Shown here: positions 988 through 59,316 of the stretch, one piece after another
Position numbering within the stretch: the first letter of the stretch is position 1
Layout: each line of letters begins with the position of its first letter
Origin: Burkholderiales bacterium
GTDB taxonomy: Bacteria > Pseudomonadota > Gammaproteobacteria > Burkholderiales > Eutrophovitaceae
Length of the DNA stretch: 64,000 nucleotides
Assembly: GCA_035560005.1 (NCBI GenBank)
Contig: DATMAN010000063.1
Location: 1 to 64,000 of the forward strand
Reading direction: 5' to 3'
Notes under the pieces: generated by a model
Seen by the model: only the letters and a program-made list of their open reading frames with translations
The model's database searches: none
Told to the model about the DNA's origin: nothing
Program-made: the position numbers and the translations under genes

Positions 988-2295
988 TCATAGGGAAGGC
1001 AGCCAGAGAGCGATCTGGGGAAAGAAGAGCACCGCCATCAGCACCGCCGCCTGGAGAACGATGAACGGCCATAGCGAAGCAAAGATGTCGTTGAGCGAAA
1101 TGTGCGGCGGCGCCACGCCCTTCAGGTAGAACGCCGCGGGACCGAAGGGCGGCGTGAGGTAGGAGATCTGCATGTTCAGGCAGAACAGCACGCCGAACCA
1201 CACCGGGTCATAGCCCAGCTCGCGCACGATCGGCACGAAGATCGGCATGGTGAGCAGGCAGATGCCCACCCAGTCCATCACACAGCCCAGGATCACCAGA
1301 ATGCCCATCATCATCAGAACGACGACGACCGGGGGTACGGCCAGCCCGGTAAAGAGCTCCTTGACGAACTGGGGCCCGCCAGCGAGATTGTAGACACCGA
1401 TCATCGCCGTCGCGCCGAAGGACAGCCAGAGCAGCATCCCGCAGGTGTGCATGGTCTGCCTGAGGGACTTGCGCACCGCGTCGAAGCTCAACTCGCCGCG
1501 CGCCGCGCAGGCGATCAGCGTGCCGATTACGCCCATGCTCGCGGCCTCCGTGACCGACGCGATCCCGAAGTAGATCGTTCCCAGCACCGCCGCGATCACC
1601 AGCAGCGGAAGTCCGAGCCCTTTGAGCAAAGCGACCTTCTTGCCGAAGGACCTGCTGCGTTCGGCTTCCGGCGCCGGTGGTCCGAGCTTCGGGTCAAGCT
1701 GGCAGCGCGCGAAGATGTAGGTCATGTACACCGCGGAGAGCACGAGCCCCGGGACCACATTGGCCACGAACAGCTCGCCGATCGGGACGTTGACCGTCAG
1801 TCCGTAGATGATGAGCACGATCGAGGGCGGGATCATGGTGCCGAGCGAACCGCCCGCGCAGATCGTTCCGATGGCCAGGCTCTTGTCGTAGCCGAGCCGC
1901 AGCATCTGCGGCAGCGCGATCAGGCCGAGCAGTACGATCTCCCCGCCGATGATCCCGGTCATCGCGCCCATGACGGTCGCCGCGACCATGGTCTGGATGG
2001 CCAGCCCGCCGGGGAGCCGCCCGGCCCACACGCGCATGGCGTCGAACAGGTCTTTCGCCACGCCGGAGCGCTCCATGAGCGAGGCCATCATGATGAACAT
2101 CGGCACCGAGACCAGCGCGTACTCGCCCATGAAGCTGTAGATGCGGCTCGCGACGAGCTGCAGGCCATTGACACCGAACAACCCGACCGTGAACAGCACG
2201 CCGATCAGGCCGGTGACGAAGGCGAGCGGCAGACCCAGCGCCAGCAGCAGGAACATGGCGCCGAACATGAGCAGCGTGATCAGCTCGATGCTCAC
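988..2295 (-). CDS. dctM: TRAP transporter large permease, DctM type
   Basis: Large membrane subunit of a tripartite ATP-independent periplasmic transporter, the ion-coupled translocation channel of the inner membrane. The 435-residue protein has the family's usual length and about a dozen hydrophobic segments, beginning MSIELITLLMFGAMFLL and containing the typical GxxIPPSI-like segment GTMIPPSIVLIIYG near residue 155. The start is GTG at 2295, overlapping the stop of the small-permease gene by four bases (GTGA), which indicates translational coupling. It sits between dctQ and the alcohol dehydrogenase in one minus-strand operon. The substrate cannot be read from this subunit. Confidence 0.95.
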   Translation of the reverse strand: MSIELITLLMFGAMFLLLALGLPLAFVTGLIGVLFTVGLFGVNGLQLVASRIYSFMGEYALVSVPMFIMMASLMERSGVAKDLFDAMRVWAGRLPGGLAIQTMVAATVMGAMTGIIGGEIVLLGLIALPQMLRLGYDKSLAIGTICAGGSLGTMIPPSIVLIIYGLTVNVPIGELFVANVVPGLVLSAVYMTYIFARCQLDPKLGPPAPEAERSRSFGKKVALLKGLGLPLLVIAAVLGTIYFGIASVTEAASMGVIGTLIACAARGELSFDAVRKSLRQTMHTCGMLLWLSFGATAMIGVYNLAGGPQFVKELFTGLAVPPVVVVLMMMGILVILGCVMDWVGICLLTMPIFVPIVRELGYDPVWFGVLFCLNMQISYLTPPFGPAAFYLKGVAPPHISLNDIFASLWPFIVLQAAVLMAVLFFPQIALWLPSL

Positions 2296-2795
2296 GCGCG
2301 GCCTGCGCGCCCCCTCAGCGCGGAAACATCCTGGACGAAGTGCAGCGCCGACTGCAGGGTCATCACCACCGCGCAGACCGCGAAGAGGGTTTTCAGATAC
2401 ACCGGAATCGGCCAGTTGAGCGCGGTCCCGGTCTTCTCCATGACCTTGAGCGCCAGCCCTGCCTGCACCAACGTGGCGAAGGTGAGAAATCCGCAGAAAG
2501 CCAGGGCGAACAGGGAACCCAGCGCGCGGGACCAGCGCCGGGCCGCCGGGCTCATGCGCTCATAGAAGAAGCCGATCGCGATGTGATGGCGATCCTGATG
2601 CACGTAGGGACCGCCGATGACGAAACAGGTAGCTGCCAGCGCGACGGAAAGCTCATGCACCCACAGCGTGGGCGCATTGAGCAGATAGCGCATCGTCACT
2701 TCATAGGCGGTGATGAGGACGACGACAAGGTACAGCCAGCTCGCCGTCTCGCCCGCTCGGCGCACGAGCCGGGCGATGCGCTCCTCCAGGCGCAT
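2292..2795 (-). CDS. dctQ: TRAP transporter small permease, DctQ type
   Basis: Four-helix small membrane subunit of the TRAP transporter, which pairs with DctM. The protein has 167 residues, matching the family, with hydrophobic helices around residues 18-38, 50-68, 88-108 and 130-150 and the usual conserved segment WVHELSVALAATCFVIGGPY. ATG at 2795 follows a good ribosome site (GGGGGA). The gene lies 60 bp after the substrate-binding protein gene and overlaps dctM by four bases. Confidence 0.92.
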   Translation of the reverse strand: MRLEERIARLVRRAGETASWLYLVVVLITAYEVTMRYLLNAPTLWVHELSVALAATCFVIGGPYVHQDRHHIAIGFFYERMSPAARRWSRALGSLFALAFCGFLTFATLVQAGLALKVMEKTGTALNWPIPVYLKTLFAVCAVVMTLQSALHFVQDVSALRGRAGRA

Positions 2796-2855
2796 AGTTC
2801 CCCCTGGTGTTGTTCCGGCGTCTTCTCGCGGCGGCGGGAGTCGGGTCCCGCCAGC

Positions 2856-3893
2856 CTATTGCAGCAGCCCCAGTTGCTGCAGGAAGGCGATCTGGGAGTC
2901 GTAGACCCTCTGCGCCATGGGGCTCTTGGCAGCATAGCTCTTCCACACGCCCCTGGCGATCTCCCGGAACTTCTGCCGCTCGCCCGGCGGTAAGTCGATC
3001 GGCTCGAACCCGCGTCTGGTCGCCTCGACCGCGATCTTCTGGTCCGCGAGGTAGTTGCGCTGGATCATCTCGCGCGCGTACTCATGGGTGGCGACTTCGA
3101 TCGCGGCCCGCAGGTCGGCAGGCAGCGCTTCCCAGCGCTTCAAGTTGATCGAGATGTCGCCGCTCGGCATCGAGTGAAACCCCGGATAGGTCGGATATCT
3201 CGCGAGCCTGTGGTAGCCGAGATCCTCGTTCATCGACAATGTGCCCCAATCGCTCGCATCGACTACGCCCCGTTCGAGGGCGGTGTAGACCTCGCTGCCC
3301 GGCAGCTGGACGGGCGCGGCGCCAAGCAGGCTGAAGATCTCTCCGCTCATCCCCTGCGGTGCGCGGATCTTCAGGCCCTTGAAATCGGCCAGCGCGCGCA
3401 GCGGCCGCTTCGAGACCAGGGATTCGACGCCGTACCACACGCCGCCGACGTAGCGAACGCCATACTGTGCATACAGCTCGCGTGCCAGCTCCTTGCCTCC
3501 GCCATATTCCATCCACATTTGCATTTGATAAGGATTGTCGAAGGCGCCCTGAGGATCGCCAATCAACGCGAATGCCGCGTCCTTTCCGGTGTAATAGGCC
3601 GGGCCGCCATTCTGGCCATCGAGCACGCCGGCACCGACGGCGTCCAGGCCTTCGGGAGGGGCCACTACTGCATTGGTCGGCAGCGCCTCGATCCTGAGAC
3701 GTCCGCCTGAGAGCGTCTCCACGCGCTTCGCGAAATCCTCGAAGAGCTGCTGCGGGAGCGTGCCCGACTGCCAGTAAGACTGCATCTTCCACTGCAAGGT
3801 CGGGCTTGGCCCGGCTGGCTGCTGCACCTGCTCGGTCTTCTGCCCGCAGGCGACCAGCACGAATACGATCGCGGCAAGCAGCGGATTTCTCAC
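2856..3893 (-). CDS. dctP: TRAP transporter solute-binding lipoprotein, DctP type
   Basis: Periplasmic receptor of the TRAP system, 345 residues. The N-terminus MRNPLLAAIVFVLVACGQK is a short lipoprotein signal with Cys16 as the likely lipidated residue. The DctP fold is supported by the FAKRVETLSGGRLRIEALP stretch near residue 50 and by KGLKIRAPQ near residue 170, where the conserved Arg that binds the ligand carboxylate is expected; WGTLSMNEDLGYHRLARY follows. The start is GTG at 3893, preceded by GGGAG at proper spacing. The receptor fold implies an organic acid ligand, but its identity is unknown. A 172-bp gap separates it from the upstream PhyH gene, with no obvious terminator in it. Confidence 0.93.
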   Translation of the reverse strand: MRNPLLAAIVFVLVACGQKTEQVQQPAGPSPTLQWKMQSYWQSGTLPQQLFEDFAKRVETLSGGRLRIEALPTNAVVAPPEGLDAVGAGVLDGQNGGPAYYTGKDAAFALIGDPQGAFDNPYQMQMWMEYGGGKELARELYAQYGVRYVGGVWYGVESLVSKRPLRALADFKGLKIRAPQGMSGEIFSLLGAAPVQLPGSEVYTALERGVVDASDWGTLSMNEDLGYHRLARYPTYPGFHSMPSGDISINLKRWEALPADLRAAIEVATHEYAREMIQRNYLADQKIAVEATRRGFEPIDLPPGERQKFREIARGVWKSYAAKSPMAQRVYDSQIAFLQQLGLLQ

Positions 3894-41789: not shown

Positions 41790-43280
41790 TCAGGCGGCTG
41801 CGGCGCGGCGGCGCCGCAGCCGGAGGAAGAACGGCGAGAGCCACACCAGAATGGCGAACACGCCGAGCGCGCCGGCGATCGGCCGCTCGAAGAATGCGGC
41901 GATGCGGCCTTCGGACTTGATGAGCGAGGTCGCCAAGTTCTCTTCCAGCATTGCGCCCAGCACCACCCCGAGGATCGCCGGCGCGACCGGAAAGCCGTTG
42001 CGTTCCATGAAGAAGGCGATGATGCCCGCGGTGAGCATCACGCCGATATCGAATGCGGTGTTGTTGATGGCGAAGGCGCCCACCATGCAGAAGGTCAGGA
42101 TCACCGGCATCAGCACGTGCCTGGGGACCCGCAGCACGCGCTTGTAGCCCTTGATGGCCATGAGCCCGAGCGGGATCATCAGCAGGTTGGCGATGAAGAA
42201 GACGATGAACACCGCGTAGATGTTCTCCGGGTTGTTGAGGAAGATCGTCGGGCCCGGGTTCATGCCTTTCAGATAGAGCACGCCGATCGCGATCGCCGTG
42301 ATCGAATCTCCCGGAATGCCGAACACGAGCGCGGGAATCCACGCACCGGACAGCGCGCCGTTGTTGGCGGCACCGCTCTCGATCACGCCCTCGACGTGCC
42401 CGGTGCCGTACTTCTCCGGAGTCTTCGAGAACTTCTTGGAGATTGCGTAGGAGATCCACGCGGCGATGTCGGCGCCCGCACCGGGCAGCGCGCCGATGGC
42501 GGTGCCCACGGCACTGCCCCGGAAGGCGGCGGCGGGATACCTGCGGACGAGCTCCCACTGCCCGCGAAAGATGTTGCCGATTCTCTCCTGCGCCAGGTGC
42601 AGCGGCGCATCCTTCGAGGTCACGTAGCGCAGCACCTCCGAGACCGCGAACATGCCGATCATCATCGGAATGAAGTTGATGCCGCCCATCAGCTCGGTAT
42701 TGTCGAAGGTGAAGCGGGGAAAGGCGGCCGGATTGTTCAGTCCCACGCAGGAAACCAGCAACCCGAGGAGCAACGAGACGCTCGCCTTCAGCGGGCGGTC
42801 CGACGCGATGAACACCGCGCACGTCAGTCCCAGCAGCACCAGCCAGAAATACTCGAACGAGCTGAAGTTGAGCGCCACTTCTGCGAGCCAAGGCGCCGCC
42901 GTGACCAGCACGACCGTTCCGAGGATGCCGCCGATCGCGGAGAAGACCAACCCCGCCCCGAGCACCAGCTCCGCCTGCCCTTTTCGGGTCATCGCGTACG
43001 CTTCGTCGGTGTAGGCAGCGGAGGCCGGCGTGCCGGGCATGCGCAGCAGCGCACCCGGAATGTCGCCGGCGAAGATGGCCATGGCGGTGGTGGTGACGAT
43101 CGCCGCGACCGCGGGAACCGGCTCCATGAAGAACGTCACGGGCACCAGCAGCGCAGTGGCCATGGTGGCGGTCAGTCCCGGAATCGCGCCGACGAAAAGC
43201 CCGAACAGCGCGGCACCGAGAATCACCGCGAGGACATAGGGATCCAGTACCAGCGCAAAGGCGGTGGTCAGCTCGCTCAT
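41790..43280 (-). CDS. tctA: tripartite tricarboxylate transporter permease, TctA
   Basis: Large membrane subunit of a TTT carrier, 496 residues, about twelve helices. GAIPGLTATMATALLVPVTF near residue 27, GDIPGALLRMPGTPASAAYT near 70, GALPGAGADIAAWISY near 260 and GIPGDSITAIAIGVLY near 320 are the diagnostic glycine-rich loops. ATG 43280 abuts the tctB stop codon. With TctB and a Bug receptor it imports carboxylates driven by ion gradients. Confidence 0.95.
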   Translation of the reverse strand: MSELTTAFALVLDPYVLAVILGAALFGLFVGAIPGLTATMATALLVPVTFFMEPVPAVAAIVTTTAMAIFAGDIPGALLRMPGTPASAAYTDEAYAMTRKGQAELVLGAGLVFSAIGGILGTVVLVTAAPWLAEVALNFSSFEYFWLVLLGLTCAVFIASDRPLKASVSLLLGLLVSCVGLNNPAAFPRFTFDNTELMGGINFIPMMIGMFAVSEVLRYVTSKDAPLHLAQERIGNIFRGQWELVRRYPAAAFRGSAVGTAIGALPGAGADIAAWISYAISKKFSKTPEKYGTGHVEGVIESGAANNGALSGAWIPALVFGIPGDSITAIAIGVLYLKGMNPGPTIFLNNPENIYAVFIVFFIANLLMIPLGLMAIKGYKRVLRVPRHVLMPVILTFCMVGAFAINNTAFDIGVMLTAGIIAFFMERNGFPVAPAILGVVLGAMLEENLATSLIKSEGRIAAFFERPIAGALGVFAILVWLSPFFLRLRRRRAAAA

Positions 43281-43754
43281 CTACCAGGCCAGCGGTTCGA
43301 GCAATCCCCACGGCAGAGGCACCTTCAGCGCGCCGTAGAAGATCCAGTGGATGACGAAGGCGGCGACCAGCGCCGTGGGCAGCGCGACGAACCAGCGGTT
43401 GCGCAGCGCGAGCAGGATGGCGAGGAGGGCAAGCGGCGCTGCGATCAGAAAGCCGAGCCTATCCGAAAACAGAATGTAGAACGCCATCGCGCCGATCACG
43501 ACGGCGAAATTCAGCGCCAGCCGCGGCGTACGCATCCACTCAGAAAGTTCGATCGCCCCTTGCGTCTTCCAGCGGCGCAGGCCCGATGCGATCAAGGCGA
43601 GACCGGTGAGGGCGAAGCCCGCGGCAATGGCGCGGGGAAACAGCGACGGCCCGAACTGCTGCCCGGGCATGGGCGGGAAACCGTGCACGTACCAGGCGAT
43701 CAGGGCGGCGAACGCCACGAGCGCCGCGCCAATGAGAGCGTCGTTGAATCTCAT
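43281..43754 (-). CDS. tctB: tripartite tricarboxylate transporter small subunit, TctB
   Basis: Four-helix membrane subunit of 157 residues. FGPSLFPRAIAAGFALTGLAL near residue 36 is the conserved loop, and hydrophobic segments lie at about 9-27, 45-60, 80-112 and 120-140. ATG 43754 is chosen over an in-frame TTG at 43760. The stop codon is directly followed by the tctA start. Confidence 0.9.
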   Translation of the reverse strand: MRFNDALIGAALVAFAALIAWYVHGFPPMPGQQFGPSLFPRAIAAGFALTGLALIASGLRRWKTQGAIELSEWMRTPRLALNFAVVIGAMAFYILFSDRLGFLIAAPLALLAILLALRNRWFVALPTALVAAFVIHWIFYGALKVPLPWGLLEPLAW

Positions 43755-43843
43755 CAGCAAAGGCCCGGCCGAGGACGGGTCCGACTTACCACAGTCCGAG
43801 TCCGGCTTCCATCGGCGCGCTCTCGATCGCTCGACCCCAGCTT

Positions 43844-44812
43844 CTATTTCGCCAAGCCGACGACCTTCATCAGCGCGCCCAGCTCGGCGTCGTCCCTGGC
43901 CATGAACGCCGCGAATTCCTGCGGCGGCGCGTAGCGCATGCCGAAGCCGCGCGAGGTCATGAAGTCGCGGAACTCGCGGCTGTCATAGGCCTTCTTGACC
44001 GCGGCGACCAGGCGGGCTTCGATGTCCTGTGGCAGCCCTTTCGGCGCAGCAACCCCGCGCCAGGCCCCGCTCACCCATTTGCTGCCGATCGCCCGCCTGA
44101 GCGTGGGCACCTTGGGAAACAGCGTCGAGGGCTTGTCGTCCATGATCGCCAGGCTCCTGACCTTGCCCGCCTCGATGAGCGCGCGTGCCTCCGCGTGCGA
44201 TCCGACGACCATGTCCACTCCGCCGGCCACCAGATCGAGCAGCCCGGCGGCGTTGCTGGCGCTGGGCACCCACAGAACGCTCTGCGGATCGACCTTCAGG
44301 TCGTGCAGCATTCCGTAGAGCGACAGATGCCAGATTCCGCCGTGCGCGGTCCCTGAAGCCTTCAACTTGCCCGGACTGGCTTCGATGGCGGCAATCAGAT
44401 CGGCGAGATTTCCGTAGGGCGCATCGGCGCGCACCTGCACCGCCGCGGCATCGACGTTGATCAGCCCCAGCGGCGCGAACGAGGCACCGTTCAATCGGGT
44501 CAGACCCTGGTGATGCATCATGCCGATCTCGACGGTGATGACGCCGATGGTGTAGCCGTCCGGTTTTGCGGCGGCGATCGCCTGATGTCCGACCACTCCG
44601 CTGCCACCGGTGCGGTTGACGACATTGACCGGCTTGCCCAGATCGCGCTCGAGCAGCGTGGCCATCATGCGGCCGACGGCATCCGTACCGCCGCCCGCGC
44701 CCCACGGGACGATGAAGGTCACCGGGCGCGCGGGGTAGTCGGCGGCGACGCAGAACGGTGCGGCGACGGTGAGCAGCAGCGTCAAAAGCAGTCTTCGCCT
44801 TGCGAAGCGCAT
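43844..44812 (-). CDS. Bug-family periplasmic receptor (TctC-like), first copy
   Basis: Extracytoplasmic receptor of 322 residues with a Sec signal peptide ending near PFCVAADY. The Bug fold is shown by YPARPVTFIVPWGAGGGTDA near residue 25, VVNRTGGSGVVGHQAIA near 65, and PDGYTIGVITVEIGMMHHQG. It presents a carboxylate to TctAB, encoded 90 bp downstream. It closely resembles the next gene over its whole length. ATG 44812 lacks a clear ribosome site. Confidence 0.93.
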   Translation of the reverse strand: MRFARRRLLLTLLLTVAAPFCVAADYPARPVTFIVPWGAGGGTDAVGRMMATLLERDLGKPVNVVNRTGGSGVVGHQAIAAAKPDGYTIGVITVEIGMMHHQGLTRLNGASFAPLGLINVDAAAVQVRADAPYGNLADLIAAIEASPGKLKASGTAHGGIWHLSLYGMLHDLKVDPQSVLWVPSASNAAGLLDLVAGGVDMVVGSHAEARALIEAGKVRSLAIMDDKPSTLFPKVPTLRRAIGSKWVSGAWRGVAAPKGLPQDIEARLVAAVKKAYDSREFRDFMTSRGFGMRYAPPQEFAAFMARDDAELGALMKVVGLAK

Positions 44813-44856
44813 TTGCACCGGCTGGCCCCGAAGGCGGCGACAAGCAAGAGGCGGAC

Positions 44857-45834
44857 TCATCGATTGATGATGCCCACAACTGTCATCGTCCTGCCCATCG
44901 CCGCGTTGCTCTGCTTCATATGCTCGGCAAACTGTCTCGCGTCGCCCCACAGCAGGCCGAAGCCGCGGCTCGCCATGAAGTCGCGATACTCCCTGGCCTC
45001 GTAGACCTTTTTCAGGGATGCCGCCAGCCGGTCGACGATCGGCTGCGGCATGCCTTTCGGCCCGGCCACCCCGCGCCATGCTCCCAGCGTCCAACCACTG
45101 GCGACGGCTTCCTGTAGCGTGGGCACGTCGGGAAACAAGGGGGCTCGCTTCGCGTCCATGATCGCCAGGCTCCTGACCTTGCCGGCCTCGATCAGCGAAC
45201 GCGCTTCCGGCAGCGAACACGGAACCACCTCGACGCCGCCCGCGACCAGATCGAGCAGGCCGGGCGCGGCGCCGTTGCTCGGCACCCAGGCCACCGACCC
45301 GGGATCGATCTTCTTGTCGGCGAGCAGGCCGAAGAACGACACGTGCCAGATGCACCCCTGTCCGCAGCCGGTGGCCTTGATCCGCCCGGGCCGCTTGCGG
45401 ATGTCGTCCAGCAGATCCTGCAGCGTCGCGTACTTCGAATCGGCCCGCACCTGCACGCCGGCCGGGTCGAAGTTCATCAGCGCGATCGGGGTGAAGTCAT
45501 CGGGCGTAAGCGGTGTCAGGCCCTGCCAGTGCAGCATCGCGATCTCGGTGGTGATGAAGCCGAGGGTGTAGCCGTCCGGCGGGGCGCTGGCCACGGCCTG
45601 ATGGCCGATGACGCCGTTGCCGCCGGTGCGATTGACCACGTTGATCGGCTGCCCGAGGTCCCTTTCCATCAGGCTGGCGATCATCCGCGCGATCGCGTCG
45701 GTTCCGCCGCCCGCGCCCCAAGGCACGACGATGGTGATCGGGCGCGACGGATAGTCCTTGCTGCCGCCGCAACCGGCAAGCGCCAGCAAGACGGCGCAAA
45801 ACGCCGCCAGCAGCCCGTTTCTCCTCCGAATCAT
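44857..45834 (-). CDS. Bug-family receptor, lipoprotein, second copy
   Basis: A paralogue of the adjacent receptor, 325 residues. It differs at the N-terminus, which is a lipoprotein signal (LLALAGCGG, Cys22). Shared landmarks are VPWGAGGGTDAIARMIASL, VVNRTGGNGVIGHQAVA and PDGYTLGFITTEIAMLHWQG. ATG 45834 follows GGAGAAG. The pair looks like a tandem duplication with a switch from soluble to membrane-anchored form, perhaps serving two ligands through one TctAB carrier. Confidence 0.93.
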   Translation of the reverse strand: MIRRRNGLLAAFCAVLLALAGCGGSKDYPSRPITIVVPWGAGGGTDAIARMIASLMERDLGQPINVVNRTGGNGVIGHQAVASAPPDGYTLGFITTEIAMLHWQGLTPLTPDDFTPIALMNFDPAGVQVRADSKYATLQDLLDDIRKRPGRIKATGCGQGCIWHVSFFGLLADKKIDPGSVAWVPSNGAAPGLLDLVAGGVEVVPCSLPEARSLIEAGKVRSLAIMDAKRAPLFPDVPTLQEAVASGWTLGAWRGVAGPKGMPQPIVDRLAASLKKVYEAREYRDFMASRGFGLLWGDARQFAEHMKQSNAAMGRTMTVVGIINR

Positions 45835-49575: not shown

Positions 49576-50652
49576 TCAGATGTCCACCGCATCTCCCGCG
49601 TCCTCTGCGGTGCCAGGCGCAGCGGGTTGAACGGTGTCGAGAACGGCGACACGATCGAGGCGGACTTCCGCGAGCAGATCGAGGATGCTCCGGGCGACTT
49701 CGTCGAGGTCGTCGGCCGGGCCGAGCGCCCAGCGGTACTCTTCGACGAAAGATTCGTCCAGGGGCGAAGTCAGTCGCACGCGCACGGTCGCATCGGAATG
49801 GGCCGCCACGCAAACGTCCGGATCGCCGAAGCGGGAACGCGCCCTGCGCAGCGCGTTGCTCACGAAAAGCTGAAAGCCCAGCTCGGCCCGCGCGAAGGAC
49901 CCGGCGTGCGCCGCGCGTACAAAGCCCATCGGCGGCCGCGGGATCGGCAGCACGGTCGCGGCCCGGGTGGACAACTGTTTGGCCAGCGTGCGGGTGAACG
50001 GAATACCCCAGCGGCCGATCGCGCCGGCCGTCTCCAGAAAGGTCGGAGCATCCGCGCGGGTGACTGCCGCGCCCGGCAGGAATCGCAGATCCACCTGATC
50101 CTCCCCGGTGTGCAGCACGATGTCCTCCGGCTCCAGCGCGAGCGGCCCCAGCTCGACGGGCTCATCGGATTGTGCGATCCGCAACAGCGCGGTCCACGAC
50201 ACCGCCTCGAGCGAGGCCCGCGAAGTCAGGGCGTTGGAAAAGCCGAAGTTCCTGACCGGGCCGAGCGCTCCGGCCGCCTCGAATACGCGGGTCAGTTCCG
50301 CAGCATCGCCAACCGCCGAGGGCACGACGGCGCCGGCCTCACCCCCGGTCACGACCACGATGGGAATCGCGAACAGCCGGATCTGCGCGCCGTCGGCCTG
50401 CAGCCGGCGCACGAGGGCCGAGTCCACTGCCTCGAGCAGGGTGCGGCAGATGGCGGCGCAAGGCGCCTCGCGTATCGCCTCCTGCACCAGATCCGCCCGC
50501 GCCTCGGCCAACAGGCGGGCCACGGCTTGTTCCAGCGACTTGTCCGGTTCGTCGTGTTGCGATGCAGGAGTCTGTGCCAGGCGTTGTGCGAGCGCCACCA
50601 GCGGCGAAGCGCTGGTCGCGCTGTAACGACGTGGATCGGGAAGAATTCTCAT
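49576..50652 (-). CDS. conserved-looking protein of unknown function
   Basis: Not recognised. The 358-residue protein is cytosolic, with no signal peptide or membrane helix, and rich in Ala, Leu and Arg. Residues 85-110 (RLFAIPIVVVTGGEAGAVV), 130-160 (PVRNFGFSNALTS) and 190-215 (DIVLHTGEDQVDLRFLPGAA) look like structured core. The C-terminal part has DDLDEVARSILDLLAEVRLD, a probable amphipathic helix. It stands alone, convergent with the hydrolase gene and divergent from the amidohydrolase gene. Codon use matches the neighbours, so it is probably real. Confidence 0.7.
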   Translation of the reverse strand: MRILPDPRRYSATSASPLVALAQRLAQTPASQHDEPDKSLEQAVARLLAEARADLVQEAIREAPCAAICRTLLEAVDSALVRRLQADGAQIRLFAIPIVVVTGGEAGAVVPSAVGDAAELTRVFEAAGALGPVRNFGFSNALTSRASLEAVSWTALLRIAQSDEPVELGPLALEPEDIVLHTGEDQVDLRFLPGAAVTRADAPTFLETAGAIGRWGIPFTRTLAKQLSTRAATVLPIPRPPMGFVRAAHAGSFARAELGFQLFVSNALRRARSRFGDPDVCVAAHSDATVRVRLTSPLDESFVEEYRWALGPADDLDEVARSILDLLAEVRLDRVAVLDTVQPAAPGTAEDAGDAVDI

Positions 50653-50754
50653 GGATCTCGGCGCGCGATTCTAACAGGCGAAACATCGGCGTCTGCCGTG
50701 GCGCAGCGCAGGCATTTCTTGAACTCGGTAGCAACAAGCGCTACAAAGGAAGGA

Positions 50755-50799
50755 GTGATCGCCAGCGGCGCGCGAAGTACCTCGCCGAGCGGCGATCAC
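50755..50799 (+). promoter_or_regulatory. stem-loop in the amidohydrolase leader
   Basis: GTGATCGCC (50755-50763) and GGCGATCAC (50791-50799) are perfect inverted arms around a 27-base loop that itself can pair. It ends 37 bp before the ATG and has no T run, so it could be a leader structure or an operator. Confidence 0.4.
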
Positions 50800-50836
50800 C
50801 ACTCGCGAGTAAAACCTTTATGGGGGAGTTCACCAA

Positions 50837-52351
50837 ATGTGGTTGAGCGATAAAGAACGCAAGGAAATAACGACGGCCGACGAACTCGACATCGGGTTCA
50901 GCTCGCCGGTTCCGACGCAGGTCGTGTCCAACGGCGAGTACAACCCGCCACCGCAGACCGAAAAACAGCGGCAGGTCGAAGGCCGGATCAAGGAGCTTGC
51001 GGACCAGTATGCCCGCAAGCTCAACATGGACCGCCGTCAGTTCCTGAAGACCGCTTCGGGGATGGCGGTGGCCTTCCTGGCGATGAACCAGGTCTTCGGT
51101 CCCGTCTGGGACGTGTCCGAAGCGGAAGCCGCCGATCTCGACATGGCCAACGAGCGCGCCAAGGCGCTGAAGGGTCAGTTCATCTTCGACGATCAGACCC
51201 ACTTCGTGCGCGACGACTTCGACAAGGAAGGCCTGCTGGGGCTGGGCAAGTACGCCGCCGAGCACTGGAACCCGGACATGCTGAAGGACATGCCGCTGGT
51301 GTTGCAGCGCTACAAGTTCCAGAACTACCTGAAGGAAGTCTATCTGGACAGCGACACCAAGGTCGCGCTCCTGTCCTCGGCGCCGTTCGACGATCCCGAC
51401 TGGTGGCTGCTGATGAACGATCAGATCGTGGCGGCCCGTCAGGCCATCAACAAGGTGGCGGGATCGCGCCGCATGTTCGCGCACACGGTGGTCACGCCCG
51501 GCCAGGGCAACTGGATGGAGGAGCAGGTCGAGCGCGGCATCGCGGAGTTCAAGCCGGACTCCTGGAAGTGCTACACGATCGGCGATCCGCTGGCGCCTTC
51601 GTCCAGAGGCACGGCCTGGCGGCTGGACGACGAGAAGCTGGTCTACCCGTGGTATGAAAAGGCGGTCAAGGCCGGCATCAACACGATCTGCATCCACAAG
51701 GGCCTGCTGCCGCGCGACTACGAGCAGTCCTGGCCGGGCGTGTGGAAGCACGCCACGGTGGACGACGTCCTGAAGGCGGCGAAGGACTGGCCGCAGATCA
51801 ACTTCGTCATCTATCACGGCGCACTGCGCATGTTCCTCGAGGACCCGGCCTATACGCTGGACAACTTCGAGAAAACCGGCCGCATCGACTGGACCACGGA
51901 CGTCTGCGAACTGGCCTCCAAGCACGGCTTGAAGAACGTCTACGCCGAACTCGGCACGACCTTCGCCACCTGTGCGGTCGCCAGCCCGCGGCTGGCCGGT
52001 GCGATGATCGGCCAGTTCGTCAACGAGATGGGCGAGGACCACGTGGTCTGGGGCACCGACTCGGTGTGGTACGGCAGCCCGCAGTGGCAGATCGAAGCCA
52101 TGCGCCGTCTGGAAATCCCCGAGGACATCATGAAGAAGATGGGCTGGAAGAAGAAGCTCGGCGGCCCGGACAGCAAGGTCAAGCGCATGATCTTCGGCGA
52201 GAACTCGGCGCGCATCTACAAGTACAAGATCCAGTCCGAGTACGAGGACCTCACGCACGATCAACTGGCGCTGATGAAGCAGATGTACGAATCCGAGGGC
52301 GTGACGCGCAACAACGTCGCCTACGGCTACGTACACAAGCGCAGCGCGTAG
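50837..52351 (+). CDS. Tat-type amidohydrolase-family (TIM barrel) protein
   Basis: Metal-dependent hydrolase/decarboxylase of the amidohydrolase-2 family, 504 residues. It has an unusual N-terminus: about 63 mostly polar residues precede a twin-arginine signal, MDRRQFLKTASGMAVAFLAM (from Met64). The barrel starts at FIFDDQTHF (residues 116-123), where the usual DxHxH has Gln120 in place of the first His; FVIYHGALR near residue 335 and VVWGTDSVWYGSP near 404 keep the later His and Asp. Start ATG 50837 has GGGGGAG; a shorter start at Met64 would give a normal Tat leader. A strong terminator follows, so it is monocistronic. The substrate is unknown. Confidence 0.83.
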   Translation: MWLSDKERKEITTADELDIGFSSPVPTQVVSNGEYNPPPQTEKQRQVEGRIKELADQYARKLNMDRRQFLKTASGMAVAFLAMNQVFGPVWDVSEAEAADLDMANERAKALKGQFIFDDQTHFVRDDFDKEGLLGLGKYAAEHWNPDMLKDMPLVLQRYKFQNYLKEVYLDSDTKVALLSSAPFDDPDWWLLMNDQIVAARQAINKVAGSRRMFAHTVVTPGQGNWMEEQVERGIAEFKPDSWKCYTIGDPLAPSSRGTAWRLDDEKLVYPWYEKAVKAGINTICIHKGLLPRDYEQSWPGVWKHATVDDVLKAAKDWPQINFVIYHGALRMFLEDPAYTLDNFEKTGRIDWTTDVCELASKHGLKNVYAELGTTFATCAVASPRLAGAMIGQFVNEMGEDHVVWGTDSVWYGSPQWQIEAMRRLEIPEDIMKKMGWKKKLGGPDSKVKRMIFGENSARIYKYKIQSEYEDLTHDQLALMKQMYESEGVTRNNVAYGYVHKRSA

Positions 52352-52375
52352 CAGCATTCATCGCTGCACCCTCCA

Positions 52376-52407
52376 GAGGGGAGCCCAACGGCTCCCCTCT
52401 TTTTTTG
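52376..52407 (+). terminator. rho-independent terminator of the amidohydrolase gene
   Basis: The 11-base stem AGAGGGGAGCC/GGCTCCCCTCT with loop CAAC is followed by seven T, 24 bp after the stop codon. Confidence 0.93.
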
Positions 52408-56595: not shown

Positions 56596-59316
56596 ATGAG
56601 CCGACCGGTCCGCGTGCTGCATCTGGAGGACGACCCGCGCGACGCGGAATTGATCCATCGGAGGCTCAAGGCTTCCGGCCCGCAGTGCGAGATCGTACGG
56701 GTCGCCGACAGAAAGGGTTTCGAGACCGCGCTGGACCGGCAAACCTTCGACCTCGTGCTGTGTGACTACAACCTGCCCGACTACGACGGCCCAACGGCGC
56801 TGCGCCATGCACGGGCGCATCGACCGGAACTGCCGATCATCGTCATCTCCGGCACGGTCGGCGAAGACGAAGCCGTCGAGTGCCTCAAGGCCGGCGCCAC
56901 CGATTACGTGCTCAAGCAGCGGCCGCAGCGGCTCGGCGCCGCCGTGTCCAGGGCGCTCAAGGAGGCCGAGCAGCGCAGACAACTTCGCCAGGCCGAGGAA
57001 GCCCTGCGCGACAGCGAGGAGCGGTTCCGGTCGGCCATGCATTTTTCGGCCATCGGAATGGCTCTGGTCGCGCCGGACGGACGCTGGCTGGAGGTCAATC
57101 GGGCGCTGTGCCGGATCACGGGATATTCAGCGGAAGAATTGCGGGCGACGAATTTCCAGTCGATCACCCATCCGGACGATCTGGCGACCGATCTCGAACA
57201 AGTGCGCCGGATGCTGGCCCGCGAAATCGACAGCTATCAGCTCGAAAAGCGCTACATCCGCAAGGACGGTGGCATCGTGTGGATATCGCTCGGCGTTTCC
57301 CTGCTCTGGACCCCGGATGGACAGCCGCGGCACTTCATCTCCCAGATACAGGACATCACGCAACGCAAGGAACAGGAACAAAAGATCGCCCGACTGAGCC
57401 GGATCCACGCCGTGCTGAGCGGCATCAACTCGGCGATCGTGCGCATCCGCGAGCGTCAGGAGCTTTTCGCCGAGGCCTGCCGCATCGTGGTCGAGCACGG
57501 CGGCTTCAGCATCGGCTGGATCGCCAGGCTGGATGAGCCGACCGGAAGACTGGTGCCCGTCGCGCAGGCGGGGCTGCCGCTGGACCTGGGAGGTGGCAGC
57601 CAGTCCCTGGAGCCACGGGCTGGATTCGCGCCGGCCGGCGTCGCCGAGATCGCCCTGCGCGAGGGCCGTCCCGCTATCGACAACGACCTCGGGGCCGGGC
57701 GGCGATCGGCGGACGCAGCGCAGTACCCGGACACCCTGAGCATCCGGCGCGCGGCCATCGAGCTGGGCGCCCGGTCGGTCATCGTGCTGCCGCTCTTCGT
57801 GGAGGAACGGACCTTCGGAGTCCTGACTCTGTACGCGCCGGAGCGCAATTTCTTCGACGAGGAAGAGGTCAAGCTCCTCACGGAACTCGCGGGCGACATT
57901 TCCTTCGCGCTCGCCTTCCTCGCCAAGGAGGAGAAGGTCAACTATCTCGCGTACTACGACGCACTTACCGGCCTGGCCAACAGCACCCTGTTGCTCGACC
58001 GCCTGGGGCAAGCCCTTCGTGCCGCGCGGCGCGAGCGGCGCATGGCAGCACTCGTTTTCGCCGATCTGGAGCGCTTTCACGTCGTCAACGACACACTGGG
58101 CAGGTCCACCGGCGATGCGTGTCTGAAGGAAGTCGCATCCCGCCTTCGGCGGCAGGCGCGCGCCGAGGACATCGTCGCGCGCATCGGCGCAGACTGCTTC
58201 GCGGTCGCCCTGATCGATGTGTCCGATGCGGACGAGGCGGCGCATTTGCTGCACGATCGCGTGTCGGCTTTCGCCAGGCAGCCGATCGTGCTTTCCGGCC
58301 AGGAGCTTCGCCTTTCGGCACGCTTCGGCGTCGCGATGTACCCGTCCGACGGGCAGTCTCCCGAGACGCTGTACGCCAATGCCGAAGCGGCACTGAAGCG
58401 AGCCAAGTCCACAGGCGAGCCTTTCCTGTTCTATACGCCGGAGATGAACGCGCGTATCGCGGAATCGCTGGTTCTCGAGAACAAGCTCCGGGCAGCGCTG
58501 GAGAAAGATCAGTTCGTGCTGCACTACCAGCCCAAGGTCACCGTCCGCGACCGCAGGATCACCGGATTCGAGGCGCTGATCCGCTGGAACGATCCGGAAC
58601 TCGGCCTGGTTTCGCCCGCGAAGTTCATCCCCCTTCTGGAAACCACCGGCCTGATCCGGGAGGTCGGGCGATGGGCGCTTTCCCGGGTCGCGCGCGATTG
58701 CCGCCTGTGGGCGGAGAACGGAGTCGCGCCGCCGCGCGTGGCTGTCAACGTCTCCGCGATAGAGCTGCGGCAGAAGGATTTTCTGGACACGATGATCGAG
58801 GCAGCGCAGATGATCCGGGACACGAACGGTCTGCTCGACCTGGAGATCACCGAGAGCGTCATCATGGAGAACCTGGACGCCGTTACAGGCAAGCTGCAGA
58901 CGTTGCGCGGTCTGGACATGCAGATCGCCGTGGACGACTTCGGCACGGGCTACTCTTCCTTGGCGTATATCGCGCGGCTGCCGATCCATGCACTCAAGAT
59001 CGACCGCAGCTTCACTGCGGGCATGACGGACAGCGCCGACAGCCTGGCGATCGTCACTTCGGTGATCTCGCTCGCCCATTCCCTCCGGCTGCAAGTGATC
59101 GCCGAGGGCGTGGAAACGCCGCAGCAGGCCGCGATGCTCGAGGAGCTGGGCTGCGACCAGATGCAGGGTTACTTCTTCAGCCGCCCGCTGCCGCCGGACG
59201 CGGTGGGGCGCCTTCTCGCCGCGCAACCCCCGGAGCAGCGCGAAGCGCGCCGTCGCGAAGCCTCCACCGCGAGGCGAATACGCCCCGCCCGGCGCGGCAA
59301 GGCGCACCGGAGGTAG
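56596..59316 (+). CDS. receiver-PAS-GAF-GGDEF-EAL protein, c-di-GMP phosphodiesterase
   Basis: Cyclic-di-GMP signalling protein of 906 residues. The receiver domain covers residues 5-120 (Asp57 in LCDYNLPDYDG), PAS about 140-265, GAF about 280-445, GGDEF about 455-610 and EAL about 620-880. The GGDEF active site reads GADCF (residues 531-535), so cyclase activity is probably lost and the domain may only bind GTP. The EAL domain is intact: FEALIRW (Glu659), ITESVIM, DDFGTGYSSL and VIAEGVET. It should degrade c-di-GMP on phosphorylation by one of the nearby kinases. Confidence 0.93.
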   Translation: MSRPVRVLHLEDDPRDAELIHRRLKASGPQCEIVRVADRKGFETALDRQTFDLVLCDYNLPDYDGPTALRHARAHRPELPIIVISGTVGEDEAVECLKAGATDYVLKQRPQRLGAAVSRALKEAEQRRQLRQAEEALRDSEERFRSAMHFSAIGMALVAPDGRWLEVNRALCRITGYSAEELRATNFQSITHPDDLATDLEQVRRMLAREIDSYQLEKRYIRKDGGIVWISLGVSLLWTPDGQPRHFISQIQDITQRKEQEQKIARLSRIHAVLSGINSAIVRIRERQELFAEACRIVVEHGGFSIGWIARLDEPTGRLVPVAQAGLPLDLGGGSQSLEPRAGFAPAGVAEIALREGRPAIDNDLGAGRRSADAAQYPDTLSIRRAAIELGARSVIVLPLFVEERTFGVLTLYAPERNFFDEEEVKLLTELAGDISFALAFLAKEEKVNYLAYYDALTGLANSTLLLDRLGQALRAARRERRMAALVFADLERFHVVNDTLGRSTGDACLKEVASRLRRQARAEDIVARIGADCFAVALIDVSDADEAAHLLHDRVSAFARQPIVLSGQELRLSARFGVAMYPSDGQSPETLYANAEAALKRAKSTGEPFLFYTPEMNARIAESLVLENKLRAALEKDQFVLHYQPKVTVRDRRITGFEALIRWNDPELGLVSPAKFIPLLETTGLIREVGRWALSRVARDCRLWAENGVAPPRVAVNVSAIELRQKDFLDTMIEAAQMIRDTNGLLDLEITESVIMENLDAVTGKLQTLRGLDMQIAVDDFGTGYSSLAYIARLPIHALKIDRSFTAGMTDSADSLAIVTSVISLAHSLRLQVIAEGVETPQQAAMLEELGCDQMQGYFFSRPLPPDAVGRLLAAQPPEQREARRREASTARRIRPARRGKAHRR

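Follow-up and report, generated by a model that had tools for sequence, protein, structure and literature searches.

A PF04909 amidohydrolase with a conserved pre-region and a twin-arginine leader that evolves like the enzyme itself

A Tat signal is as a rule a disposable tag that evolves fast. In an amidohydrolase of a Burkholderiales bacterium (assembly GCA_035560005.1, contig DATMAN010000063.1), the twin-arginine leader is conserved like the enzyme that it precedes, which suggests that this export tag may have a function within the enzyme. The gene lies in a stretch of 64,000 nucleotides (positions 1 to 64,000 of the contig, hereafter the window), and its features are collected in Table 1. 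The question of its start is settled in favour of a genuine pre-region upstream of the leader, and the leader evolving like an enzyme part is a stronger finding than the unusual residue, Gln120, in the first metal motif.

Table 1. Features of the amidohydrolase gene and its product; positions are those of the window.
Feature	Position	Strand	Details or basis
Shine-Dalgarno-like GGGGGAG preceding the start codon	50822..50828	+	sequence
Tat-type PF04909 amidohydrolase gene	50837..52351	+	504 aa, ATG start, TAG stop
Conserved pre-region, residues 20-62	50894..51022	+	alignments, selection, AF2
Leader, residues 63-99	51023..51133	+	alignments, conservation control, AF2
Amidohydrolase (beta/alpha)8 barrel, residues 113-480	51173..52276	+	Pfam; VIA-align model range 111-473
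First metal motif DDQTH, residues 118-122	51188..51202	+	sequence, alignment
Lys244 on predicted beta4 (strand 242-246)	51566..51568	+	AF2; kept in 74/74 rows
His287 on predicted beta5	51695..51697	+	74/74 rows; AF2; weak LigJ register
His327 on predicted beta6	51815..51817	+	74/74 rows; AF2; weak LigJ register
Asp408 at beta8	52058..52060	+	kept in 71/71 rows with data
Intrinsic-terminator-like hairpin 3' of the gene	52375..52407	+	11-bp stem, 4-nt loop, T run

The GGGGGAG element ends 8 bases before the Met1 codon. A promoter-like match was looked for at the amidohydrolase gene and none was found. The closest upstream gene (ORF 49576-50652, minus strand) points the other way and the hairpin downstream is a strong terminator-like one, so that the amidohydrolase gene seems to be transcribed on its own. 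An antisense open frame of 538 aa (50741-52357, minus strand) covers the entire gene and resembles a GC-rich shadow frame. Elsewhere in the window, approximately 5 kb from the gene and on the opposite strand, positions 41790-45834 hold tripartite tricarboxylate transporter genes, among them 2 consecutive genes for TctC-like receptors. A tRNA-Leu (caa) gene at 56631-56706 (plus strand) overlaps the called start of a long sensor-type open frame (56596-59316), and the true start of that frame is therefore probably further downstream.

As originally predicted, the Tat motif begins at residue 64 behind a polar extension (MDRRQFL at residues 64-70, with the twin arginines R66-R67), and this left 2 options, translation from Met64 or a genuine pre-region. 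Relatives decide for the latter. The alignment begins at query residue 1-6 in 40 of the 43 confirmed relatives from named genomes, the exceptions being L048 and L053, which align from residue 21, and L070, which is cut by a contig end; the possibility that relatives start only at Met64 thus does not hold. The pre-region consists of a linear motif, P-x-P-T-x-x-x-S-N-G-E-Y/F-x-P-x-P-Q (residues 20-41), followed by a helix (residues 42-61) in the AlphaFold2 (AF2) model, and Pro24, Pro26, Glu34, Pro37, Gln40, and Gln44 are invariant in the 34-row alignment. Residues 20-62 are under purifying selection: between the window gene and L172 their dN/dS is 0.09, compared with 0.10 in the barrel, and between the window gene and L002, where dS is saturated over these residues, dN is low (0.12 vs 0.115 in the barrel). 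A Shine-Dalgarno-like tetramer is found at the long start in 35 of 41 named relatives tested, whereas an ATG within 12 codons of the twin arginines occurs in only 28 of the 41 named loci, 6 of these 28 with such a tetramer, and nothing resembling a Shine-Dalgarno sequence stands before Met64 in the window gene. The twin arginines are at residues 60-75 in 63 of 64 main-family rows, and the remaining row is partial and has no twin arginines. A start at Met64, with a spurious frame upstream, would put the twin arginines at the usual distance from the N-terminus, but the upstream region is conserved and selected and the ribosome-binding sequence lies at the upstream start, so that we reject this reading as next to impossible. 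Selection, the Shine-Dalgarno-like sequence, and homology show that the pre-region is genuine and that the start is Met1. In the same genome, a paralogue (G000:C88:34172-35326) carries an HTH motif and a different pre-region of 60 residues before its RR leader; we take this as a second pre-region type within the same enzyme group.

The leader itself consists of RRxFLK, a hydrophobic helix (residues 73-87) with an invariant Asn84, and a cleavage-like AEA site (residues 96-98), and an RRxFL motif followed by a hydrophobic stretch is what is expected of a Tat substrate. Of the 73 rows with data, 72 have the twin arginines and all 73 have R67, F69, G75, and N84, the count for N84 spanning 3 paralogue groups; the AEA site is likewise conserved (E97 in 68/73 and A98 in 69/70 rows with data). 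The window protein scores 16.8 bits with the TAT_signal profile PF10518 (residues 63-79), under the cut-off of 22.7, and is also under the cut-off of TIGR01409, while the C88 paralogue of the same genome reaches 22.9 bits with PF10518, past the cut-off once neighbours are counted. A weak hydrophobic core was considered and rejected, as the best 15-residue segment of the leader has a mean hydropathy of 1.49, and 11 other Tat leaders encoded in this genome span 1.25-1.85.

To compare the leader with those of other exported proteins, we took as controls 3 further Tat-type proteins encoded in this genome, each with its relatives, with leader boundaries set by eye and class names (FCSD, sulfite-oxidase-like, and multicopper oxidase) read from the sequences and not from a family search. 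Loci were required to have at least 85% of the barrel aligned, which kept 57/57 amidohydrolase, 18/19 FCSD, 8/8 sulfite-oxidase-like, and 17/18 multicopper oxidase loci. At 55-75% barrel identity (33 of the 57 amidohydrolase relatives), identity in the amidohydrolase leader (residues 63-99) was 0.67, compared with 0.61 in the barrel. In contrast, leader and mature identities were 0.40 and 0.63 for FCSD (16 of 18 loci), 0.40 and 0.67 for the sulfite-oxidase-like protein (4 of 8 loci), and 0.37 and 0.63 for the multicopper oxidase (16 of 17 loci). Even at 45-55% mature identity the amidohydrolase leader was 64% identical (23 loci). Invariant columns of the 34-row alignment make up 12 of 37 positions in the leader and 67 of 368 in the barrel, and in the comparisons of the window gene with L002 and L172 dN was 0.05-0.06 in the leader vs 0.11-0.12 in the barrel. 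The amidohydrolase thus departs from the other Tat proteins of these genomes, in which the signal is poorly conserved beyond the twin arginines. A profile covering pre-region and leader (A2) matched in 31 of 100 relative genomes. The matches were the amidohydrolase in 7 inspected rows and in rows with the coordinates of known amidohydrolase loci; 3 further rows were weak (E 0.003-0.008) and several had no locus. Among the profile A2 rows inspected in these 100 genomes, the leader was not found on any other kind of protein.

The AF2 model, run on the 34-row alignment, has a mean pLDDT of 84.2 and a pTM of 0.88. It contains helices at residues 42-61, 73-87, 95-99, and 101-111, and the pLDDT over residues 41-110, in blocks of ten, is 87, 90, 83, 88, 94, 95, and 91. 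For residues 11-40 it is just 56-62, so that the linear motif is not placed. A control TctC protein with an RR leader, modelled with the same settings, had a pLDDT of 46 and 44 in its first 2 blocks within a model of mean 87.9; this control is a single protein, and its alignment was shallower and half near-identical. Judging from pLDDT and pTM, the leader of the amidohydrolase probably packs on the barrel. The barrel is of the amidohydrolase TIM-barrel fold (AF2 model; VIA-align Z up to 23.2), and Pfam Amidohydro_2 (PF04909) matches the protein with 36.3 bits, above its cut-off of 26.4, and the barrels of 18 of 18 diverse family members at E <= 0.1. Its fold neighbours are BB4693, pyrone-dicarboxylate hydrolase, dihydroxybenzoate decarboxylases, LigW, and ACMSD. 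Nearly all of these alignments begin at model residue 107-116, and the N-terminal module of approximately 110 residues had no counterpart in the solved structures matched by the fold search. Searches of the PDB at E <= 1 gave no match for the whole-protein profile and, for the window protein, none except a chance match to Nup98; a profile of the barrel found LigJ alone (E 1.3).

The first metal motif, DDQTH, was correctly called in the original prediction, with Gln120 encoded by CAG at 51194-51196 and His122 at 51200-51202. Describing it as the loss of a metal His is partly misleading, however: the Gln is real, but it is the common state, present in 46 of 74 rows, with His in the other 28. The expected DxHxH pattern was also too strict for PF04909, as solved enzymes have His, Glu, or Asp as their first ligand. 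This ligand is His12 in IDCase and Glu7, Glu8, or Glu19 in several decarboxylases, LigW and the dihydroxybenzoate decarboxylases being of the Glu type, where the window enzyme has Gln120 (PMC7894528), and it is Asp25 in AibH2 (PMC10401708). Gln120 therefore sits where variation is already known. The window enzyme has QxH at beta1 in place of HxH, ExH, or DxH; because the ligand set varies among PF04909 members, this argues for a variant site and not against membership of the fold family, whose His at beta5 and Asp at beta8 are both present. To our knowledge, a Gln-His first metal motif has not been seen in characterised PF04909 enzymes. Asp118, His122, and Lys288 are kept in 74 of 74 rows, like the 3 residues so marked in Table 1. 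His287 is likely a metal ligand, His327 likely a catalytic base or second-site ligand, and Asp408 likely a metal ligand or acid.

For a maximum-likelihood tree with the motif columns removed, we took out the window copy (L001), partial or refetched rows (L017, L068, L085, and L091), and broken ones (L028 and L094), and thinned the rest at 95% identity to 60 rows; the 74-row set retains close copies and the partial refetches L085 and L091. On this tree, which has an uncertain root because L095 and the paralogues sit on long branches, the state of position 120 changes twice (bootstrap 2-2; shuffled mean 17.6). Gln is found in most of the main family and in the C31-type paralogues, and His in the C88-type outgroup and in a clade of 19 rows (support 100/100) nested among the Gln rows. 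Gln120 occurs with Ser409 and Tyr412 in 42 rows and the main-family His with Ala409 and Thr412 in 24; the exceptions are one Gln row and 3 outgroup His rows with Trp412, and 4 rows have no data. Genomes G044 and G448 hold the Gln and His kinds together. Because of the tree, the covariation at 409 and 412, and the co-occurrence in these 2 genomes, we read position 120 as marking 2 site types and not decay, with Gln120 as an old lineage-wide trait rather than a fresh loss. A sequence error at codon 120 is rejected since relatives share the Gln, and a frequent sequence conflict does not describe the His either, which is found only in the supported clade and one outgroup paralogue group. The RR motif, the pre-region, and Gln120 all recur in relatives from several phyla, and are thus neither chance nor sequence error. 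The window's own genome also encodes a leaderless PF04909 protein (L196, C69:8015-8704) in which the first motif has degenerated to DFRGR, and so holds HxH, QxH, and motif-less members of the family.

Among known enzymes, ACMSD, LigW, 2,6-dihydroxybenzoate decarboxylase (2,6-DHBD), IDCase, and LigJ share the TIM barrel, and their second His, beta5 His, beta6 His, and beta8 Asp are kept here (Z 18-20 against the LigW, ACMSD, and 2,6-DHBD structures). The window enzyme differs from these decarboxylases and hydratases in having Gln where they have His or Glu as first ligand, and in its N-terminal module. The top fold match is BB4693 (PDB 3irs), an uncharacterised TIM-barrel protein from Bordetella bronchiseptica (Z 23.2, rmsd 2.9 over 260 residues), but identity is 12% and the alignment starts at model residue 114, leaving the leader without a counterpart. 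The dinuclear oxygenases AibH2, SfbO, and PtmU3 also have a PF04909 barrel, and SfbO is among the fold matches. Their ligand set is different: where AibH2 has 25D, 27H, 211H, 265E, 337D, and 340H (PMC10401708), the window enzyme has Q120/H122, H287, H327, and D408/W411, that is, Gln for the first Asp, His327 for the beta6 Glu, and Trp411 for the His three after the beta8 Asp. An AibH2-type oxygenase is rejected on these ligands. For export, PA2699 of Pseudomonas aeruginosa is a proven Tat-dependent amidohydrolase whose start codon was likewise ambiguous (PMC4899797); unlike the window enzyme, it belongs to PF07969 and has a short n-region with the twin arginines at residues 10-11 (PMC6085387). 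PMC6085387 also gives Rieske proteins as a precedent for an uncleaved Tat signal on a mature protein. There the signal is a membrane anchor, whereas for the helix of the window enzyme, which follows a conserved module of 60 residues, the model predicts order together with a soluble barrel.

The enzyme is rare. A match at E <= 0.001 was found in 22 of 61 near relatives, its own genome included, and one at E <= 1e-30 in only 3 of 398 genomes sampled across the phylum. Named carriers include Rokubacteria, Methylomirabilota, Acetobacteraceae, Roseomonas, and Pseudomaricurvus, and single carrier bins are labelled Acidobacteriota and Myxococcota, though such bins may be misassigned. Rhodopila globiformis, Vineibacter terrae, and Roseomonas AR75 are carriers that have been cultured. 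Rhodopila globiformis DSM 161 (L041) has 2 adjacent copies (genes 303-1811 and 2102-3607), both of the DDQLH type. The closest annotated plasmid copy, on a Sphingobium baderi plasmid, is 30% identical; its deposited start gives it a leader of the same layout, and it is placed within a cluster for acyl-CoA catabolism. A C31-type relative with QTHH on a Sphingobium baderi plasmid (L201, 3965-6889) lies in a cluster of acyl-CoA dehydrogenase, thiolase, and CoA-transferase genes, with an IS6100 element one gene downstream. Copies are broken in L011 (a TAG, in G016) and in L069 (stops; an Alphaproteobacteria bin), and the gene is therefore sometimes lost. The most frequent neighbour is TctC, near 17 loci including the window; Pfam counts of neighbours covered 63 and 50 of 111 and 115 listed. 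In L039 (2860-5830) and L071 (2527-5580), TctC, TctB, and TctA genes immediately precede the enzyme gene in the same orientation, and at Roseomonas-type loci a divergent TctC gene adjoins the His-type copy; other neighbours vary by lineage. No dedicated chaperone or partner gene common to the relatives' loci was found among the neighbours covered. Because several copies adjoin genes for TctABC carboxylate uptake or acyl-CoA catabolism, our best guess is a carboxylic or aromatic substrate and a hydrolytic, decarboxylating, or hydrating step. Literature searches, from which subscription papers were mostly outside reach, listed no paper on a family of PF04909 amidohydrolases with a Tat leader.

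We favour, with about even confidence, a Tat-exported PF04909 enzyme that has a lineage-specific, structured, and perhaps retained leader and a metal centre with Gln120. The TIM-barrel enzyme would fold and take up its metal in the cytoplasm and would then be exported in the folded state through Tat. The first 110 residues or so would form a lineage-specific module, running from the motif at 20-41 through helix 42-61, the twin arginines at 66-67, and helix 73-87 to helix 95-111. Because conservation is as strict in this module as in the barrel and the model orders the two together, the module probably docks on the folded barrel and may remain on the mature enzyme; it would belong to the fold of the precursor or serve in its quality check. 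In the periplasm, Gln120, His122, His287, and Asp408 would surround a divalent metal, with Gln120 standing where relatives have their first His (or Glu, or Asp) and His327 as the likely acid/base.

The main rival is a standard Tat signal that is cleaved off and whose n-region is unusually long. Pre-region and leader would be held constant through recognition by a dedicated signal-binding chaperone, as TorD and DmsD are for their reductases, and the mature periplasmic enzyme would start around Ala99. Chaperones of the REMP type do bind Tat leaders (PMC4464133), and the conserved AEA site fits this possibility, as does a motif at residues 20-41 that is conserved yet predicted to be loosely ordered, as a docking motif would be. 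We consider it possible rather than probable: no candidate chaperone gene recurs beside the enzyme gene among the neighbours covered, although such a gene could lie elsewhere, and in the AF2 model the leader helix is ordered together with the barrel even though no partner is present. Less probable still is a cytoplasmic protein in which RRxFL is a structural coincidence and the N-terminus an extra domain. The ordered leader of the AF2 model, the Tat profile scores under their cut-offs, the length of the pre-region, and the cytoplasmic CoA enzymes among many of the neighbours would all suit such a protein, but all 73 rows with data have R67-x-F69, the hydrophobic stretch is within the normal Tat range, and the C88 paralogue passes the PF10518 cut-off once neighbours are counted.

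At the metal site, 2 alternatives were weighed. The original suggestion was a mononuclear or atypical site, and mononuclear is in any case the state that is usual in the amidohydrolase superfamily. In phosphotriesterase-type (subtype I) amidohydrolases, a carboxylated beta4 Lys bridges 2 metals. A dinuclear site of this kind, with carboxylated Lys244 as the bridge, Gln120, His122, and Asp408 on one metal, and His287 and His327 on the other, would explain a Lys at predicted beta4 in all 74 rows together with the kept beta5 and beta6 His. We think it unlikely, as the weak LigJ alignment has Asn, a non-ligand, at the position of Lys244, and, oxygenases aside, the PF04909 enzymes characterised so far are mononuclear or have no metal (PMC10811679). 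That some members of the family work without a metal cofactor (PMC10811679) would, together with the missing first His, suit a dead or metal-free enzyme marked by Gln120. This we regard as very improbable: H122, K244, H287, and H327 are invariant, D408 is present wherever there are data, the barrel is under purifying selection (dN/dS 0.10-0.16), and Gln covaries with Ser409 and Tyr412 as a stable site type.

The exported enzyme with a structured leader remains the reading that we prefer. In its fullest form, which we put forward only tentatively, the pre-region and RR leader would fold onto the barrel, report a folded and metal-loaded enzyme, pass the Tat system, and stay as a structural part in the periplasm, so that signal and enzyme evolve together around a Gln-His centre. 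A conserved AEA site directly after the leader favours cleavage and counts against a retained leader. The enzyme is ordinary as a fold and of interest for Tat biology. Its natural versions with Gln or His as first ligand, sometimes in one genome (G044 and G448), offer a test of how this ligand affects the choice of metal, and the family provides a clean system in which to study how Tat recognises a folded substrate and whether signals can turn into enzyme parts.
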